A DNA stretch of 64,000 nucleotides from Isosphaera pallida ATCC 43644. Lineage in GTDB: Bacteria > Planctomycetota > Planctomycetia > Isosphaerales > Isosphaeraceae. How positions within the stretch are numbered: position 1 is the first letter of the stretch; each line of letters begins with the position of its first letter. Both the position numbers and the translations under genes were made by a program. The stretch is taken from contig NC_014962.1 in NCBI RefSeq assembly GCF_000186345.1, positions 2,756,450 through 2,820,449 on the forward strand, read 5' to 3'. Positions 14,915 through 50,763 of this stretch are shown in pieces. A model generated the notes under the pieces. That model was not told the origin of the DNA. It did no database searches and saw only the letters and a program-made list of their open reading frames with translations.

Positions 14915-17232
14915 CTCGGCCCCTCGCGCCTCCCACCCCAGTTCGTCCAACGCTTGCGAACTCGTCGGCTCGTTCCTCCTCGTCGCGGCCATACGGCGTT
15001 GCGACGTGGATGCATCTTTGCAATGGCTTGGATCCTATGCGCGACGGCGGGATGGTGCCCAGCATTCTGGGGATGACCGGGAGCCTGGCTCGTCTGACGG
15101 CGCGGCGCGGCGCTCCCGATCGCCTCGATGATCCAACCGACGCCTCGCCGACCTCCCCGAGGGGACGGGTCCGCATCGTCACGCCGACGCCCTCGCGTCG
15201 CGAGGCGTTGACCTTACCCCAAGGAGTAGAACTGGTTGGTCCCACTCCCGAGTTCGAGGCCGAGATACGCCGCGCGGATCTCGTTCATATGCATGGACTT
15301 TGGCAAATTCATACGCGCCGGGGCGCGCCGGCGGCGCGGGCGGCACGAGTGCCTTATCTGATCGCCGCCCACGGCATGGCCGAACCCTGGGCGCTGCGTC
15401 ATAAACGTTGGCGCAAATGGATTTACACCGCGCTGGTTGAGGGGCCGAATCTTCGAAACGCCTCCTGTCTGCACGCCTTGACCCGTCCCGAGGTGGACCA
15501 TCTGCAGACGCTCGCGCCGGAGGCTCCGGTGTGCCTGGTGCCCAATGGGGTTGATCTGGAGCCGTTCGAAGATCTGCCGCCGCGTTCGGAGTTGGAGACA
15601 GAGTGTCCTGAGTTGGAGGGCAAGTTCGTCCTGCTGTTCCTGTCGCGTCTGCACGTCAAGAAAGGTCTGGACTTGCTGGCCGACGCCTTCGCGCGGATCG
15701 CTGACGACTGGCCGGACCTTCATCTGTTGCTGGCAGGTCACGACGACGGGGCGTGGCAACCGTTCCGTCAGACCATCGAAGCGGCCGGTTTGACCGAACG
15801 GATGACCTGGGTAGGCCATGTCAACGGTTGGCGGGCGCGTCGGGCGTGGGCCGCGGCCGACGCCTTCATTTTGCCCAGCTACTCGGAAGGCTTCAGCATG
15901 GCGATTCTGGAGGCGCTGGCGTGTCGGTTGCCCGTGATCGCCACCACCGCCTGCCATTTCCCCGAACTGGCCCAACGTCAAGCCGGCCTGGTGGTCGAAC
16001 CTAGCCGTGAGGGTGTCCTTCGGGCGCTTCGAGCTCTGCAGGCCATGAGTCCCTCCGAACGGGCTGAGTTGGGTGAGCGTGGGCGTCGGCTGGTCGAAGC
16101 CGACTACACCTGGGAACGCCAGGCTGAAAAGCTTGCTCGTGTTTACGACTGGCTGCTCGGCGGCGGCACCCCGCCTGAAGCAGTGGTCGAACCCCGTGGT
16201 CGCGCGGGCCGGCGGATGGTCGCCACGACGACCGCCGCGGAGGCCACCGCCAACACCCCCGCGATCCCTCATCCTCACCTCGCCTTGACCACGGGTCACA
16301 TGCGCGCATCCGATCATCGAATCACATCCAAAGCCCCTGTCTCCAAAGCGCCTGTCAGTGTGCTGGTGCCGGTCAAAAATGAAGCCGCCAACTTGGAGCG
16401 TTGCCTGCCGGCGTTGGCATGGGCCGACGAGGTGTTCGTGGTCGATAGCCAAAGCCAGGATGCGACGGTCGAGGTCGCTCAGCGTCACGGCGCTCGGGTG
16501 GTTCAGTTTTACTTCAACGGCGTCTACCCTAAAAAGAAGAACTGGGCGCTCGATTCGTTGCCCTTCCGCAACGAGTGGGTGCTGATCGTGGACGCCGACG
16601 AGGTGGTGCCTCCCCAACTGGCCAACGAGATCGCCCAACGCATCGCCACCGACGAGGCCGACGGCTTTTTGCTCAACATGAAATATTTCTTTCTGGGGCG
16701 TCGCATCCGACATTGTGGATATGCCGAATGCTGGAACCTGCGTCTCTTCAAACATCGGATGGGGCGTTACGAGCGGATGCCGGTCGCGCCCGGTTCGGGC
16801 ACAGGCGACAACGAGGCCCACGAACACGTTATTCTCGATGGCCGAATCAAAAAACTCACCCACGAGTTAGACCACTACGCCTATCCGGATATCTCCACCT
16901 GGGTGGAGAAGCACAACCGCTACGCCGCTTGGGAAGCCGAACAATACGAACGCTTCCTCAAGGAACCGATCCCCAAAGGAATCGGCGCAGGGAAGCGGTT
17001 CAAGCGGATGCTCAAAAAAATCTATCTGAGACTGCCCGCGCGTCCGGTGATCCGCTTCCTCTATGCCTATGTGGCGCGGTTGGGGTTCCTCGACGGCAAG
17101 CCGGGTTTGGCCTTCTGTGGCCTTTTGGCCTTCTACGACTTCCTCGCCTGGGCCAAACGCTACGAGAAAAGCCTTCAATCTCTCGACGCTTCCCACAACG
17201 AAGGGAAAGGTGGCGTTTACTCTGAATCCTAA
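14911..17232 (+). CDS. Bifunctional glycosyltransferase: GT4 fused to GT2
   Basis: A 773-residue fusion in one uninterrupted frame. Residues about 30-420 are a GT-B family 4 enzyme: DLVHMHGLWQIH at 124, FLSRLHVKKGLDLLADAF, and the E-x7-E motif in PSYSEGFSMAILEALAC at about 322. A 60-residue Ala/Thr/Pro linker follows. From about 480 to the end is a GT-A family 2 domain: SVLVPVKNEAANLERCLPAL, ADEVFVVDSQSQDATVEVA, and the DADE metal-binding motif in VLIVDADEVVPP. The C-terminal region resembles WaaE/KdtX-type GT2 proteins, with YPKKKNWAL and ISTWVEKHNRYAAWEAEQY. Two sugars could thus be added by one polypeptide. It overlaps the previous gene by four bases. Confidence 0.85.
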   Translation: MTRPLAPPTPVRPTLANSSARSSSSRPYGVATWMHLCNGLDPMRDGGMVPSILGMTGSLARLTARRGAPDRLDDPTDASPTSPRGRVRIVTPTPSRREALTLPQGVELVGPTPEFEAEIRRADLVHMHGLWQIHTRRGAPAARAARVPYLIAAHGMAEPWALRHKRWRKWIYTALVEGPNLRNASCLHALTRPEVDHLQTLAPEAPVCLVPNGVDLEPFEDLPPRSELETECPELEGKFVLLFLSRLHVKKGLDLLADAFARIADDWPDLHLLLAGHDDGAWQPFRQTIEAAGLTERMTWVGHVNGWRARRAWAAADAFILPSYSEGFSMAILEALACRLPVIATTACHFPELAQRQAGLVVEPSREGVLRALRALQAMSPSERAELGERGRRLVEADYTWERQAEKLARVYDWLLGGGTPPEAVVEPRGRAGRRMVATTTAAEATANTPAIPHPHLALTTGHMRASDHRITSKAPVSKAPVSVLVPVKNEAANLERCLPALAWADEVFVVDSQSQDATVEVAQRHGARVVQFYFNGVYPKKKNWALDSLPFRNEWVLIVDADEVVPPQLANEIAQRIATDEADGFLLNMKYFFLGRRIRHCGYAECWNLRLFKHRMGRYERMPVAPGSGTGDNEAHEHVILDGRIKKLTHELDHYAYPDISTWVEKHNRYAAWEAEQYERFLKEPIPKGIGAGKRFKRMLKKIYLRLPARPVIRFLYAYVARLGFLDGKPGLAFCGLLAFYDFLAWAKRYEKSLQSLDASHNEGKGGVYSES

Positions 17233-36113: not shown

Positions 36114-36301
36114 AGTGGGAAGTGGGGAGTGGGGTGTGGGGTGTGGGGTGTGGGGTGTGGGGTGTGGGGTGTGGGGTGTGGGGTGTGGGAAGTGGGAAGT
36201 GGGGTGTGGGAAGTGGGAAGTGGGGTGTGGGAAGTGGGAAGTGGGGTGTGGGAAGTGGGGTGTGGGAAGTGGGAAGTGGGGAGTGGGGTGTGGGGTGTGG
36301 T
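36114..36301 (+). repeat. Left heptamer array of cassette (GTGGGGT/GTGGGAA units)
   Basis: About 27 tandem seven-base units of the form GTGGGRN. The first half is mainly GTGGGGT; the second half has a higher-order 21-base pattern of two GTGGGAA and one GTGGGGT. It is the mirror image of the right array (CCCCACN). It abuts the left inverted repeat directly and lies about 125 bp upstream of the Nramp-like start codon. Heptamer repeats CCCCAPuT-like are known as STRRs in heterocystous cyanobacteria. Confidence 0.9.
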
Positions 36302-36365
36302 GAGCAAGCCACCAACCGGAGTCGAAGAGCACAGCCGGACTCGGAAATGGCAAGTCGCAGGCTAA
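36302..36365 (+). repeat. Left terminal inverted repeat of cassette (64 bp)
   Basis: The reverse complement matches 37074-37137 at 63 of 64 positions; the single difference is a C/G inside the GAGTCSGGCTG segment. The high identity between arms 700 bp apart implies recent formation or active homogenisation. Confidence 0.95.
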
Positions 36366-36511
36366 CCTAGGAGTGACAATTCGCAGACAGATACAGAACT
36401 CATATTAAGTTGATGTACATCGAGATATGTGATCTAAATAATGTCAGAATTTACATAAATTTTTATTAAATTTCTTACAAAATTACATTTAACTCTCTAG
36501 AATTCTTATTT

Positions 36512-36883
36512 TCAAAGACGATTTTCTAAACTTTTTCGGAGCCCCGCAATCATACGACTGATTGTTTCGGTTTGGTTGAGGAGATCGTCGAGTATCGGCT
36601 TTGGAAGAAAATGAAGTCGCCAACTGAGAATCAAATGTGTTTCCAGCTCTTTGAGAGAGCCTCTAGCGATGCTGAGAAAATTGAGAAACTCTTTTGTACT
36701 CTGTCGTCCTTGTCCCTCTGCGATGTTTGCTGGAATCGAAGAGGATGCTCTTCGAATTTGGGTTGTGAGACCGAAAAGTTCTTGTTTCGGATAACTTCTA
36801 GTCACTCTGTAGCAGATTACGGCAAGATCCATTGCCTTCCGCCAAACTTCGAGGTCGCGGTATGATTGGAGAGTCACTGTCAT
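36512..36883 (-). CDS. Four-helix-bundle protein (23S rRNA-intervening-sequence/S23, Avd-like family)
   Basis: A 123-residue protein with the family signature throughout: YRDLEVWRKAMDLAV, then FGLTTQIRRASSSIPANIAE followed by GQGR, and FLNFLSIARGSLKELETHL. The length is typical (about 115-130). Homologues are encoded in intervening sequences within 23S rRNA genes of Leptospira and Coxiella, and the fold is shared with Avd of diversity-generating retroelements, where it binds nucleic acid; isolated chromosomal copies are common but of unknown function. It is the only gene in the AT-rich core. GGGAG lies immediately before ATG 36883, unusually close. Codon use is more AT-rich than neighbours, suggesting foreign origin. 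No reverse transcriptase or 23S rRNA is nearby. Confidence 0.93.
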   Translation of the reverse strand: MTVTLQSYRDLEVWRKAMDLAVICYRVTRSYPKQELFGLTTQIRRASSSIPANIAEGQGRQSTKEFLNFLSIARGSLKELETHLILSWRLHFLPKPILDDLLNQTETISRMIAGLRKSLENRL

Positions 36884-37073
36884 CTCCCGCGTGTGTGAAA
36901 TGTGGAGTGTGCTAAGCGCCTGCTCAACATGATTTTCGTGGCGTTTCTCAAACTTTCCTCATTTCACACAAGATCCTCTCTCGGTTTCAAGAACTTTTTT
37001 CCCTACAAGTTATATCATAGATTGTTAACAAAAATATATGATCACATTCAATGATTCAACCATCACTTCCGAA

Positions 37074-37137
37074 TTAGCCTGCGACTTGCCATTTCCGAGT
37101 CGGGCTGTGCTCTTCGACTCCGGTTGGTGGCTTGCTC
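37074..37137 (-). repeat. Right terminal inverted repeat of cassette (64 bp)
   Basis: Inverted partner of 36302-36365 (63/64 identical). It is followed directly by the CCCCACN array. Confidence 0.95.
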
Positions 37138-37342
37138 CCCACATCCCACACCCCACTCCCCACACCCCACACCCCACTCCTCACTCCCACTCCCCACACC
37201 TCACTCCCCACACCCCACTCCTCACTCCCCACTCCTCACTCCTCACTCCCCACTCCCCACTCCCCACTCCCCACTCCCCACTCCCCACTCCTCACTCCCC
37301 ACTCCTCACTCCCCACTCCCCACTCCCCACTCCCCACTCCCC
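37138..37342 (-). repeat. Right heptamer array of cassette (CCCCACA/CCCCACT/CCTCACT units)
   Basis: About 29 tandem heptamers, mirror image of the left array, with CCTCACT variants not seen on the left. A few units are one base short. It ends at the stop codon of polA. The repeat has no stop codon in any frame, so long Pro/His/Thr/Ser open frames across it are artefacts. Confidence 0.9.
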
Positions 37343-40300
37343 TCAGATTTCCAGAGGTTCAACATCAAGCCAGTTGGGACCGGCAGCAAGATCAACTTTG
37401 AGCGGAGTCTCCAGAGTGGCGGCGTGAATCATTGCTTCTTGGACAAGACGAGCGGTTTCGGTCAGGGCGTCGCGCTCAACCTCGAAGAGCAGTTCGTCGT
37501 GAATTTGCAGAATCATCCGCGCGGGTAGCTTGGTTTCTTTGAGGCGTTGATCCACCGCAATCATCGCGCGTTTGATCAGGTCGGCGGCTGAGCCTTGGAT
37601 GACGGTGTTGATCGCGGTGCGCTCGGCAAGGTTGCGGTGGCGACCTTCGACATGCTTGATGCCGTTGATGGCGCGACGGCGTCCTTCTAAGGTTTCGACC
37701 CGCCCGGTGTCGCGGGCCTGGGTCAGCACCCGCGTCATGAAGGCTTCCACATGAGGATATTGATCAAAATAAGCATTGATGAACGCCGCCGCTTCGCTTT
37801 GGCTAATTCCCAGGCGACTGGCCAAACCGTGAGCGCTTAGGCCGTAAATCACTCCGAAGTTGACCGTTTTGGCCATCCGGCGTTGGTCCGAAGTGACCGA
37901 ATCAAGAGCCACTCCGAAAATCTTGGCCGCCACATCAGCGTGGATGTCTCGATCTTCCTCGAATGCGCGGAGTAGTGCTGGGTCACGGCTGAAGTGGGCT
38001 AGCACCCGCAGCTCAATTTGCGAGTAGTCGGCTGTCAGCAGGACTTGGCGGGCTGGGTCGCCCGCGACGAATGCCTGGCGCACTTGACGGCCCTCCTCGG
38101 TGCGCACCGGAATGTTCTGAAGGTTGGGTTCGCTAGAGGAGAGCCGCCCGGTGGCCGTGACTCCCTGGTTGAAGGTGGCCCGGATGCGGCCGTCGGGGTG
38201 GGTCAGGTTGGGCAAGGCGTCCAAGTAGGTGTTTTTGAGTTTTTCGATGCGGCGATGTTCAAGCAGCACCTTGGGCAGTTGGTGGAGCGCAGCGAGTTCC
38301 TCCAGCACCTCCTGAGCGGTGGAGGCTTCTCCTTTGGGGGTTTTGCCGCGGGGGGGGAGTCCCAAGCGTTCGAAGAGAATGACCCGCAGCTGGGGGGGGG
38401 AACTGAGGTTGAACGGTTCGCCGGCCAGTTGGTGGGCTTGGCGTTCCAGGTCGGTTAGGCGGGCGGAGAAGTCGCGGGAGAGCTGGCGGAGGCGGGCGCG
38501 GTCGAGAGCCACTCCAGCCTCCTCCATGTCGGCCAGGATTTCGATGAGCGGGCGTTCCAAGGTGTCATAAAGCCGTTCAAGTCCCTCGGCGGCCACACGT
38601 TGGGCCAGCACTTGACCCAAACGCGCGGAGGCGTCGGCCCATTCGACCGCCCAGAGAGCCAAACGTTCGGGTGGGACCGCCGCTGGGCCGTCCTGGTGGG
38701 GATCGTCGGCGAAGACAAGAAATCCGTCGCGCGGCGGGGTCCCGGTGGTTTGAGGGAGTCCGACAACGTCCGGCGTCTCGTCGTCGGGGTTGGTCTCCTC
38801 GGAGGCGTCAGCTTGGGATCGGGAGCGTCCGCGTTTGGGGTTGGCCTTGGGTTTGCTTCTGGTCGTAGTTGCGGAGGCGTTGGGTTCGGGAGGGCGGGAA
38901 AGGGTGTGGTTGAGGAACCTCTTGGCGAGTTCGGGGGCGGTGTGGTTGCGTTCGCCCGACTCCAACAAATAGCTCAAGACCATCGGATCGACCCCTTTGC
39001 CGGCGAGCGTCCAACCGTGGCGTTTCAGCACCCGAAGGTGGGCTTTGAGGTCGTGGGCGTGCCACGCGATCCTGGGGTTCTCCAACAACGGGGTGAGCAG
39101 GTCGCGGGCCGTCTGGGCGGGGATCACCGTCGCTCCCGGAGGTCCCATAAAGGGGAAATACCAGCCGCGCCCTGGTTCTGACGACAGCGCTAAACCCACC
39201 CAAGCGGCCCGGTGAAGATCCGGCGACCCGGGGACAGTCCATAACCCCAGTTGACTCGCCCCGGCGAGCTCGGCGGCCACCTTGGCCAACTCCTCGGGAT
39301 GATTGACGAGGCGATACTCCGCAGTGGACCAGATGGGACGCTCGTTCCCCACGCTAGAGGGGGCGGACGTGGCGGACCAGACCGGCCGGATCTCTGTTGT
39401 CTCTGTATTTGGAATGAACGACTGTTGGGGTTGATTGTGATGCGAGTCAATGGACCGCAGCGGGTCGTTGGCCTGGAGGGGGGGGGCGGGCATCGGAGCG
39501 ATCGAAGAGACGGGTTCGGGAACCGGAACCGGAGCCGGGATCTGCCCGGGGCCAGGACCGGCCACGGAGGAGGCGGGGAGAATGCCCCAGCGGGCGGCGT
39601 CGGCTTCGATTTCCGGGAGGAACTTGTGGAAGCCGCATTGGCGACAGAGAGTCTGAAGCGCCTCCACGTCAGGCGGACGGGTCACCAGGGCGTGGGGGTC
39701 GAACTTCAGCGGCAAGTCGTCGCGCAATTGAATCAAACGCCGGGCGCGATCCAGCGCTTCGGCGTGTTCAACCAGCGCCTGGCCTTTCTTACCCGGCACC
39801 CGACCGGCGCGGGCGGCCTCCAGCAACTGGTCGAGCGTTCCAAACTCGTTGAGCAGCTTGACGGCGGTTTTCAGGCCGATGCCGGGCACTCCCGGCACGT
39901 TGTCCACGGCATCCCCGGTGAGAGCGAGGGCGTCCACCACCCGTTCGGGACCAATCCCCCACTCAGCGCGATGGGCCGCGGCGTCGATGATTTGACCTTT
40001 GCGGAGGTTGAGCAAGCGGATGGCCGGGTCGGTCAAGAGTTGGCGGGCGTCCTTGTCGGACGTGCAGAGGATCACGTCATAACCAGCCGCTGCCCCGCGA
40101 CGGGCTAAGGTGGCCAGCACGTCGTCGGCCTCGAAGCCGGGAACCGCTACAACCGGCACGCGAAAACCTTCTAATGCGCGGGCGATTACGTCGAGCTGAG
40201 GCGTCAGGTCTTCGGGCTGATCCTTGCGGGTGGCTTTGTAGCTGGGGTCGATCTCGGAGCGGAACACCGGCCCCGGCGCGTCCCAAGCGGCAGCCATGAG

Positions 40301-40465
40301 GTCGGGCTTGCGTTGGCGGCGCAGGTTGAGCAAGTCGCGGAGGATTCCAAAGACCGCGTTGGTGGGTTGGCCGACGGGACCTGTCATGAGCGGAATTGCA
40401 TGAAACACTTGATAGATCAGGGCGAAACTATCCAGCAGATACAGCGTCGGCCGTTTGGAACTCAT
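37343..40465 (-). CDS. polA: DNA polymerase I
   Basis: A 1,040-residue polymerase for Okazaki fragment processing and repair. The N-terminal 290 residues are the 5'-3' exonuclease (LYLLDSFALIYQVFHA, GFEADDVLATLAR, LTGDAVDNVPGVPGIGLKTA). A Pro-rich linker leads to the 3'-5' exonuclease-like domain, which reads LGLWTVPGSP where an active DxE motif is expected, so proofreading is probably lost. A Lys/Arg/Ser-rich insert (about 525-590) interrupts this domain. The polymerase domain has motif A DYSQIELR (Asp813), motif B MAKTVNFGVIYG, and motif C HDE (989-991). ATG 40465 is chosen because conserved sequence begins there. The length exceeds the usual 880-930 because of linker and insert. The stop codon touches the cassette. 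Confidence 0.95.
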   Translation of the reverse strand: MSSKRPTLYLLDSFALIYQVFHAIPLMTGPVGQPTNAVFGILRDLLNLRRQRKPDLMAAAWDAPGPVFRSEIDPSYKATRKDQPEDLTPQLDVIARALEGFRVPVVAVPGFEADDVLATLARRGAAAGYDVILCTSDKDARQLLTDPAIRLLNLRKGQIIDAAAHRAEWGIGPERVVDALALTGDAVDNVPGVPGIGLKTAVKLLNEFGTLDQLLEAARAGRVPGKKGQALVEHAEALDRARRLIQLRDDLPLKFDPHALVTRPPDVEALQTLCRQCGFHKFLPEIEADAARWGILPASSVAGPGPGQIPAPVPVPEPVSSIAPMPAPPLQANDPLRSIDSHHNQPQQSFIPNTETTEIRPVWSATSAPSSVGNERPIWSTAEYRLVNHPEELAKVAAELAGASQLGLWTVPGSPDLHRAAWVGLALSSEPGRGWYFPFMGPPGATVIPAQTARDLLTPLLENPRIAWHAHDLKAHLRVLKRHGWTLAGKGVDPMVLSYLLESGERNHTAPELAKRFLNHTLSRPPEPNASATTTRSKPKANPKRGRSRSQADASEETNPDDETPDVVGLPQTTGTPPRDGFLVFADDPHQDGPAAVPPERLALWAVEWADASARLGQVLAQRVAAEGLERLYDTLERPLIEILADMEEAGVALDRARLRQLSRDFSARLTDLERQAHQLAGEPFNLSSPPQLRVILFERLGLPPRGKTPKGEASTAQEVLEELAALHQLPKVLLEHRRIEKLKNTYLDALPNLTHPDGRIRATFNQGVTATGRLSSSEPNLQNIPVRTEEGRQVRQAFVAGDPARQVLLTADYSQIELRVLAHFSRDPALLRAFEEDRDIHADVAAKIFGVALDSVTSDQRRMAKTVNFGVIYGLSAHGLASRLGISQSEAAAFINAYFDQYPHVEAFMTRVLTQARDTGRVETLEGRRRAINGIKHVEGRHRNLAERTAINTVIQGSAADLIKRAMIAVDQRLKETKLPARMILQIHDELLFEVERDALTETARLVQEAMIHAATLETPLKVDLAAGPNWLDVEPLEI

Positions 40466-41064
40466 TTGAGGAACCCTGGAATCCGGGCGGGCGGTCAAGC
40501 GGTGGCGACGTCTCCGTGCCATAGCGGCGTGGGAAGTCGCTCAACGTTTCGGGAACCGAACGGGAGCAAGTGACGTCCATCGTCTCAAAGAAAACCGGCA
40601 ACGGGCACGCCTTGCCCTTTGTCCGGGTCGTCTTTTCCCCTGGCTCCGCCGACTCGCTCAAGCGAGCGCGACTCGATCCAACGCCAAAGCGAGATTGTGG
40701 CGCGAAGTGCAGGGGTGGGAAAGGCGGTTCGTTCTCAACTCAACGGTTTCCGATCGGTTGGTCGGGCGCGTTGCGATCCGTTCCCAATTGCTCCGAAAGC
40801 CCGTACAATTCGACAAGACCGATCCGGTCGTCGTAGTTGGGATTGGCGGTGGGCGGGCTTCGGGTCAGTTTCGGCCTGGTCATGTGGAATACTTGCGGCA
40901 ATGCCCGGTGTCAGCGCCAGAGGAAGTGGAGAAGTCGGCCGACAGCTCCGCTGCGTTCCCGTTCTACGACGCTGCCGCCGCGTTCGACTTGAACCGACCC
41001 CGATTTTTTCATATCGACCTCGCCTCGACGAGATTTTCTCCGACCTGCTCAGGAGTCCTCCCCA
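40466..41064. other. Divergent intergenic region
   Basis: A 600-bp gap between polA and the coiled-coil gene. A possible promoter for the latter is TTCCCA (40781) and TACAAT (40804) with a 17-bp spacer. Nothing else recognised. Confidence 0.35.
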
Positions 41065-49665: not shown

Positions 49666-50763
49666 ATGAAGTCCCCGGTTGCCCCACCGCTGTCCCAAAC
49701 GGTTCGCGTGTCCCAAACGGTTCGCGGTTCGTGGACGGTGCCTGAACCCAACGCTTCGGGAATCCCATCCTCTCGGTCCCCTTCGGACACAGCCCAGCCG
49801 CCAGCGTCGCTTCAGCGTCGGCTCAAAAACCAGGCCAAGCGGGGTCTCCGCCGGCTCTTCGAGTGGGGTCAACGAGTGGGGGTGGACATCCTGCCCCGTC
49901 ACTTCTATTCCGAGGTGCCCGACATCCGGACGCTTCGCCAGGACCAGACCTGGCGCGCGCCGAGGTCGATGGTCGGAGTCCACGGGACCGCAATCGACTC
50001 TCAATTCGAGTTCGTAGCGTCGTGCTGCTTCGGACCGGAGGGGATTCAGTCGCAACTGGCCAGCGGCGCGATTTACCGCGACGCCTGCGACGACAACGGC
50101 GAACCGGGCTTCAGCGCCACCGACGCCGAGTTTCTTCATGCCTTCATCCGTTCGATTCGTCCCCGCCGGGTGATCCAGATTGGCTGCGGGGTCTCCACCG
50201 CCGTCATGCTGCGGGCCGCCCACGCCTCGGGATACGTGTTGGAGATTCGCTGCATCGAGCCCTACCCCACACCATTTCTAATCGAAGCCCATCGTCGGGG
50301 CGAACTCGAACTGGTGGCCAAACCGGCTCAGACCGTGTCGCTGGAGACCTTGACCGATCTTGGCGACCACGGCCTCCTCTTTGTCGATTCCACGCACACC
50401 GTCAAACCAGGCAGTGAGGTCAACCGTCTCATCCTAGAAGCGCTCCCACGGCTTCGGCCGGGTACCTGGGTGCATTTCCACGACATCTATTTTCCCTACG
50501 ACTACCAGCGCGGTTTGCTCGACGACGAGTTATTCTTCTGCAACGAAACCGCCCTTCTGCTGGCGTTTCTCACCGGCAATGATTCCTATCGGATCCGAGC
50601 TTCGCTGAGCATGTTGCATCATGCCGACGCCACGCGGTTGGCGCGATGCCTGCCCCGTTACACCCCAGCACCCTGCGAGCAGGGTCTGAGAACCGGACCA
50701 GGCGACTTCCCGGCGTCGATCTACCTCGAAGTGATCGAGCGGACCGAGGCTGGACTGGGCTGA
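49666..50763 (+). CDS. Class I SAM-dependent methyltransferase (Methyltransf_24-like)
   Basis: A 365-residue protein from ATG 49666, preceded by a strong AGGAGG nine bases upstream. The first 60 residues are low-complexity; a perfect 18-bp tandem duplication in the DNA gives the repeated SQTVR. The core has IRPRRVIQIGCGVSTAVML (motif I), IRCIEPYPTPFLIEAH (acidic loop as ExYP), GLLFVDSTHTVKPGSEVN, and PGTWVHFHDIYFPYDY. The VDSTH and HFHD pair is typical of Methyltransf_24 family enzymes often found in surface polysaccharide or secondary metabolism loci, with possible metal ligands. The substrate is unknown. It stands alone, divergent from uvrC. Confidence 0.8.
   Translation: MKSPVAPPLSQTVRVSQTVRGSWTVPEPNASGIPSSRSPSDTAQPPASLQRRLKNQAKRGLRRLFEWGQRVGVDILPRHFYSEVPDIRTLRQDQTWRAPRSMVGVHGTAIDSQFEFVASCCFGPEGIQSQLASGAIYRDACDDNGEPGFSATDAEFLHAFIRSIRPRRVIQIGCGVSTAVMLRAAHASGYVLEIRCIEPYPTPFLIEAHRRGELELVAKPAQTVSLETLTDLGDHGLLFVDSTHTVKPGSEVNRLILEALPRLRPGTWVHFHDIYFPYDYQRGLLDDELFFCNETALLLAFLTGNDSYRIRASLSMLHHADATRLARCLPRYTPAPCEQGLRTGPGDFPASIYLEVIERTEAGLG

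Follow-up and report, generated by a model that had tools for sequence, protein, structure and literature searches.

The mirror-array cassette next to polA

The window is the whole 64-kb stretch of Isosphaera pallida DNA analysed here. It contains an intergenic cassette, located between polA on one side and an Nramp-type gene on the other, which is composed of the following parts:

36114–36304, plus strand: left heptamer array, an outer terminal repeat with (GTGGGRN)n running inwards to the core (Tandem Repeats Finder, period 7, 27.3 copies)
36302–36365, plus strand: left 64-bp inner arm, 63/64 complementary to the right arm
36366–37073, no strand: AT-rich core between the arms, 708 bp
36512–36883, minus strand: S23/four-helix-bundle gene, 123 aa, intact (matches to PF05635 and TIGR02436)
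37074–37137, minus strand: right 64-bp inner arm, recognised by its complementarity to the left arm
37137–37342, minus strand: right heptamer array, the left array mirrored (Tandem Repeats Finder, 29.6 copies)
37343–40522, minus strand: polA, host flank, its stop codon in contact with the element

The two arrays, of 27 and 30 units, lie at the outer ends in mirror orientation and surround the inner arms. The arms are complementary at 63 of 64 positions, and the genome search with the arm gives 98% over 64 bp. The core has a GC content of 39.5% (measured over 36377–37062) versus 62.1% for the 64-kb window, and harbors one real gene, of the S23 type. On the other side of the right arm, the array extends to position 37342 and thus directly abuts the polA stop codon at 37343–37345. 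These observations confirm an earlier sequence-only reading, which had described the mirror GTGGGRN arrays, the arms, the AT-rich 708-bp core with its lone S23-type gene, and the contact with the polA stop.

The GTGGGRN array pattern occurs 199 times in the I. pallida genome versus 29 times for the reversed pattern used as control, so the arrays in this genome are not due to chance. The window also contains short two-copy tandem repeats at 16327–16356 and 49691–49726 (15 and 18 bp), which are unrelated to the cassette. Among known RNA families, a search of the 64-kb window against Rfam found a single tRNA only.

The S23 protein

Proteins of the S23/four-helix-bundle type are widely annotated and a pentamer structure has been solved. 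To our knowledge, no enzymatic activity has been assigned to four-helix-bundle S23 proteins. The protein of the window matches the 23S_rRNA_IVP family PF05635 with E=7e-40 and 136 bits, compared with a curated cut-off of 33.8, and TIGR02436 with E=9e-39. The Avd model gives 21 bits, far below its cut-off of 80. Two solved structures, 2gsc and 2rld, are retrieved by sequence with this protein. The nearest is 2gsc (XCC0516 from Xanthomonas campestris, E=4e-24), and XCC0516 is cited as a homopentamer (PMC4990558).

Between the window gene and its nearest relatives the synonymous difference is 0.84–0.88, which is saturated, and the non-synonymous difference is 0.19–0.27. Plasmid copies of S23 with 78–83% DNA identity have a dN/dS of 0.10–0.15. 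S23 thus evolves under purifying selection, with a dN/dS of about 0.1. The low dN/dS of the plasmid copies, together with the low non-synonymous change in the window gene, therefore shows that the S23 product is maintained.

Related cassettes in I. pallida and the polA junction in relatives

The array type of the window recurs at about 17 further places in the I. pallida genome. Array searches recover 12 cassettes, in which a plus array is followed by a minus array, and six one-sided arrays. The sequence-only reading had stated that the lack of any second copy of the arm–gene–arm unit, together with the same structure at the same locus in all relatives, would argue for a fixed local arrangement. 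Neither a second 64-bp arm nor, by protein search, a second S23 gene is found in this genome; what recurs is the mirror-heptamer layout, in 11 other cassettes with different cores and without an S23 gene. Some of these cassettes are related to each other. Those at 3.059 and 3.071 Mb have 455 bp in common at 85% identity from array to array, those at 3.422 and 3.456 Mb have 283 bp in common at 86% identity, and further pairs show weaker core similarity. The core of one cassette (L143:1170-1460) is itself a tandem array, with a unit of approximately 35 bp derived from the heptamer. On the I. pallida plasmid contig (L149, 56174–56340), the end of the record falls inside a heptamer array; as the record is circular, the array may run on at its beginning.

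In most I. pallida cassettes, no more than about 8 bp separate the array edge, on at least one side, from a stop codon that ends a long open reading frame (ORF). For heptamer arrays of Xanthomonas, the mean distance to the adjacent ORF on the 5' side is 28 nt (PMC4692102), and TAACTGA repeats have been proposed as regulatory (PMC4679880). Such positions, a few bases from stop codons, would suit heptamer hairpins that act as regulatory or mRNA 3'-end structures, with S23 as an RNA-binding regulator and movement as incidental. Sparing of the neighbouring genes accounts for them as well.

The sequence-only reading had also proposed comparing the polA junction in relatives. Neither a GTGGGRN array nor the cassette is found after polA in 11 other Isosphaeraceae, and the 3' junction of polA lacks the element in each. 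The refuting condition set by that reading, no second unit together with an unchanged locus in all relatives, thus gave a mixed result. In another member of the family (L221:2650-2830), a different 7-bp repeat (GATCGAA/GAACGAA) is located about 70 bp past the polA stop. Because the relatives are too distant for an empty-site alignment, we only infer mobility for the window copy: its class, its base composition and its absence in relatives suggest that it was inserted after polA.

Association of S23 genes with mirror heptamer arrays

S23 loci were gathered from Planctomycetota, all bacteria, Gammaproteobacteria and plasmids; the sample favours the best matches and is phylogenetically non-independent. 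Mirror arms were scored at a threshold of at least 14 within 300 bp of the gene, with other ORFs of 90–400 aa from the same loci as controls. They are found at 85 of 134 S23 loci (63%) versus 2 of 141 other ORFs (1.4%; p=7e-33), at 1.1% of shifted positions and in 4.4% of cross-locus pairs. At this threshold, clear arms are missing in 37% of the S23 loci. The period is 7 or 14 bp in 91 of the 92 arms tested. The polarity is also common to the arms: in 71 of 97 cases xGTxxxx in the upstream arm points to the gene, and in only one of 97 is it reversed. The heptamer itself is lineage-specific (AGTGGTC, AGTCGTC, AGTTTTT, GGTTGCT, AGTAGGC and others). GGGAATC-type arms surround a gammaproteobacterial S23 gene (L187) that is itself broken.

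For the generic GT-period pattern in Planctomycetota, we compared only genomes with and without S23, because the presence of heptamers raises the reversed control too. Of the 87 genomes with S23, 32 have at least 20 long array hits, versus 3 of the 112 without (p=2e-10), an association over 199 genomes that is uncorrected for phylogeny and counts the arrays adjoining S23 itself. Other genomes contain many short plus/minus heptamer pairs with a spacing of about 75–110 bp, and of the seven genomes with matches, six have no such pair in the reversed control. No S23 gene was found in phage records.

An 18-mer shared by the upstream regions of S23 genes from many phyla was considered as a conserved terminus and rejected, as it is coding sequence of a methyltransferase that hosts a nested S23 gene. 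At two loci (L206:1880-1915 and L161:5330-5360), the heptamer array itself encodes the stop codon and the last residues of S23, and the upstream array stops some 10 bp short of the start codon with an AGGAG stretch.

Filled and empty sites on cyanobacterial plasmids

On Trichormus plasmid C, an S23 unit is located between two genes. A stretch of 428 bp is missing from six relatives, with flanks that are 97.5% identical. In the two relatives compared at sequence level, the absence is exact and no flanking bases are lost. Units of 417 and 506 bp at other plasmid sites show the same present/absent behaviour. Four plasmid cases differ in the direct repeat at their junctions: GTAAT (5 bp) in one, no exact repeat in the next, then ATG (3 bp) and a single base pair. 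A constant-length target duplication is thus absent. For one further pair (L196 and L230), a clean junction was not obtained. A decayed S23 element, consisting of an array and an N-terminal S23 fragment, lies at L204:1350-1480; L161 has the element at this plasmid site, whereas L203 and L209 are empty. Given this decayed copy, precise loss rather than gain may have occurred there. Identical S23 genes on two cyanobacterial plasmids were discarded as evidence of transposition, since a larger segment is common to both and the identity is hence uninformative.

Moreover, 46 plasmid records contain S23-less hairpins, about 184 bp long and with these same ends, amounting to 90 places, partial matches included. 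Eight of them were aligned and have their termini in common. One hairpin of 182 bp splits an S23 gene whose counterpart in a relative is intact.

Several plasmid S23 elements are located inside operons: among type I-D cas genes (L198, L201), between cas10 and cmr3 (L200), within a tra operon (L196), and between the genes for ribonucleotide reductase subunits (L195).

The empty sites bear on whether the repeats are ordinary slippage-made simple sequences that lie near S23 by coincidence. In most of the repeat-rich genomes that PMC4679880 cites, heptamers predominate among the long simple repeats, which favours this origin. The mirror layout, the 71:1 polarity, the specificity for S23 and the empty sites are not products of slippage, and the empty sites already contradict it. 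We consider coincidence extremely improbable.

S23 genes nested in host ORFs

Of 153 S23 genes, 37 (for example those of L080, L087, L098 and L101) lie inside a longer host ORF that is open throughout, always in the +2 frame. The number of +2-frame stops is zero in all 37 nested genes and averages 4.7 in the other 116, of which 10 are stop-free. Among eight hosts tested, seven contain DNA-methyltransferase-type domains (Eco57I, MmeI, N6_N4_Mtase, and DUF1156 alongside a match to D12-type methyltransferases); the eighth is a PAS histidine kinase. One host methyltransferase has uninterrupted, single-piece homologues on plasmids, with up to 75% identity. The simplest reading is that nesting would result from insertion under selection preserving the host frame. 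Frame-open copies nested in DNA methyltransferases would be a striking case of dual coding, in which the element spares the host gene.

Insertion into coding sequence, nesting in methyltransferase ORFs, lineage-specific heptamers and exact presence/absence in near-identical plasmid operons all suit a selfish element better than regulatory or 3'-end structures past stop codons. We therefore regard the regulatory explanation as quite unlikely.

A probable class of small mobile element

The element consists of two mirror heptamer arrays around a single S23 gene, without any known transposase, and has shorter derivatives without S23. The association of S23 with heptamers across phyla, the presence/absence on plasmids, the dispersed S23-less copies and the purifying selection are direct observations. 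Together they make it likely that the window cassette belongs to a widespread class of small mobile element that has so far gone undescribed. S23 would have a binding or mobilising role in it. The sequence-only reading had suggested an undescribed mobile unit outside rRNA without a transposase, and this holds for the class, given the filled and empty sites, the S23-less derivatives and the dispersed copies.

In the mechanism we propose, the mirror arrays can pair and would form a long hairpin. S23, a pentamer in the solved homologue, may recognise the hairpin of its own heptamers, in DNA or RNA form, which may help the element and its S23-less relatives to copy into new sites. The S23-less derivatives carry the arrays alone or a hairpin core. 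Insertion would favour stop codons or, in some lineages, the interior of DNA-methyltransferase genes, where the element could be read through in the +2 frame. The strand-transfer enzyme probably acts in trans.

One candidate for such an enzyme is a Y1 (HUH, IS200/IS605 or RAYT-type) transposase moving the elements on single-stranded hairpins, with S23 as an accessory or passenger. This is the REPIN model, in which a Y1-type transposase acts in trans on single-stranded hairpins (PMC3116915), and the hairpin ends, the miniature derivatives and the lack of a constant target duplication recall both IS200/IS605 and REPINs. I. pallida does have one Y1_Tnp match (C2:4939391). This sole match is partial and the fetched locus contains no ORF over 195 aa, so it looks degenerate. 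In addition, the gene enclosed by the arrays is the strongly purifying-selected S23 rather than a Y1 transposase. We judge movement by a Y1 enzyme to be unlikely.

An rRNA intervening sequence (IVS) that escaped from rRNA and was inserted as RNA via reverse transcription would account for the protein family and the complementary ends, both of which are found in IVSs (PMC4990558). This origin is very unlikely: no RVT_1 domain was detected in the I. pallida genome, and no 23S motif was found in any S23 locus fetched, in a limited test with exact motifs. The RNA route and the link to 23S rRNA, both raised by the sequence-only reading, thus find no support here.

For the preferred mobile-element class, we tentatively consider a bolder version possible. 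S23 pentamers might be the mobility proteins of a new element type that lacks both recombinase and reverse transcriptase and whose ends are co-evolving heptamer arrays. In some lineages it might be 'ORF-transparent', residing inside methyltransferase genes with +2 read-through, so that one DNA stretch would give both S23 and an insert in the host enzyme.

We provisionally regard the element class as new: the open-access literature, to which our search was confined, has heptamer repeats and S23 proteins separately and never together. The class would offer a common explanation for two old puzzles, the role of the S23 protein and the occurrence of heptamer repeats in many bacteria. The class would also represent mobile DNA in many phyla without a known transposition enzyme, with a mechanism that is testable in plasmids with existing filled and empty sites.

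Comparison with known systems

By its score above the curated cut-off, the window protein belongs to the S23/PF05635 family. Avd of diversity-generating retroelements is a related four-helix-bundle family. It differs in that the window protein scores well below the Avd cut-off and that I. pallida has no detectable reverse transcriptase to accompany an Avd protein and a template repeat.

The elements resemble MITEs as small inverted-repeat elements, and the S23-less copies are reminiscent of non-autonomous derivatives. They differ from MITEs in having tandem-array ends and no cognate transposase; the constant-length target-site duplication of DDE-type MITEs is absent in the four plasmid cases.

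The likeness to REPIN/RAYT systems lies in a single-copy gene flanked by a repeat, and in many dispersed hairpins, mainly extragenic, whose repeat is the one found beside the gene. In REPINs the partner gene encodes a Y1 tyrosine transposase (PF01797) and REPs are short palindromes, whereas here the enclosed gene encodes a four-helix bundle (PF05635) and the repeats are tandem heptamers.

Intervening sequences of 23S rRNA are similar in having a lone S23-family gene, complementary ends capable of forming a stem, no recombinase, a size of about 0.4 kb and a sporadic distribution (PMC4990558). The window copy likewise has its S23-family ORF between complementary ends. IVSs are located in rRNA helices, inside the 23S (or 16S) rRNA gene, and are excised by RNase III, whereas the present elements are intergenic, in operons and in protein genes, the window copy having polA and an Nramp-type gene as neighbours. 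The present elements also differ by their heptamer-array ends and their S23-less derivatives.

The heptamer repeats of cyanobacteria and Xanthomonas (STRR, GGGAATC, TAACTGA) share the 7-bp tandem unit. GGGAATC in Xanthomonas forms 70–75 convergent array pairs in opposite orientation, and heptamer repeats are described as generally unassociated with mobile elements (PMC4692102). These heptamers are described as repeats without a linked gene, whereas in the present elements they are linked to S23.
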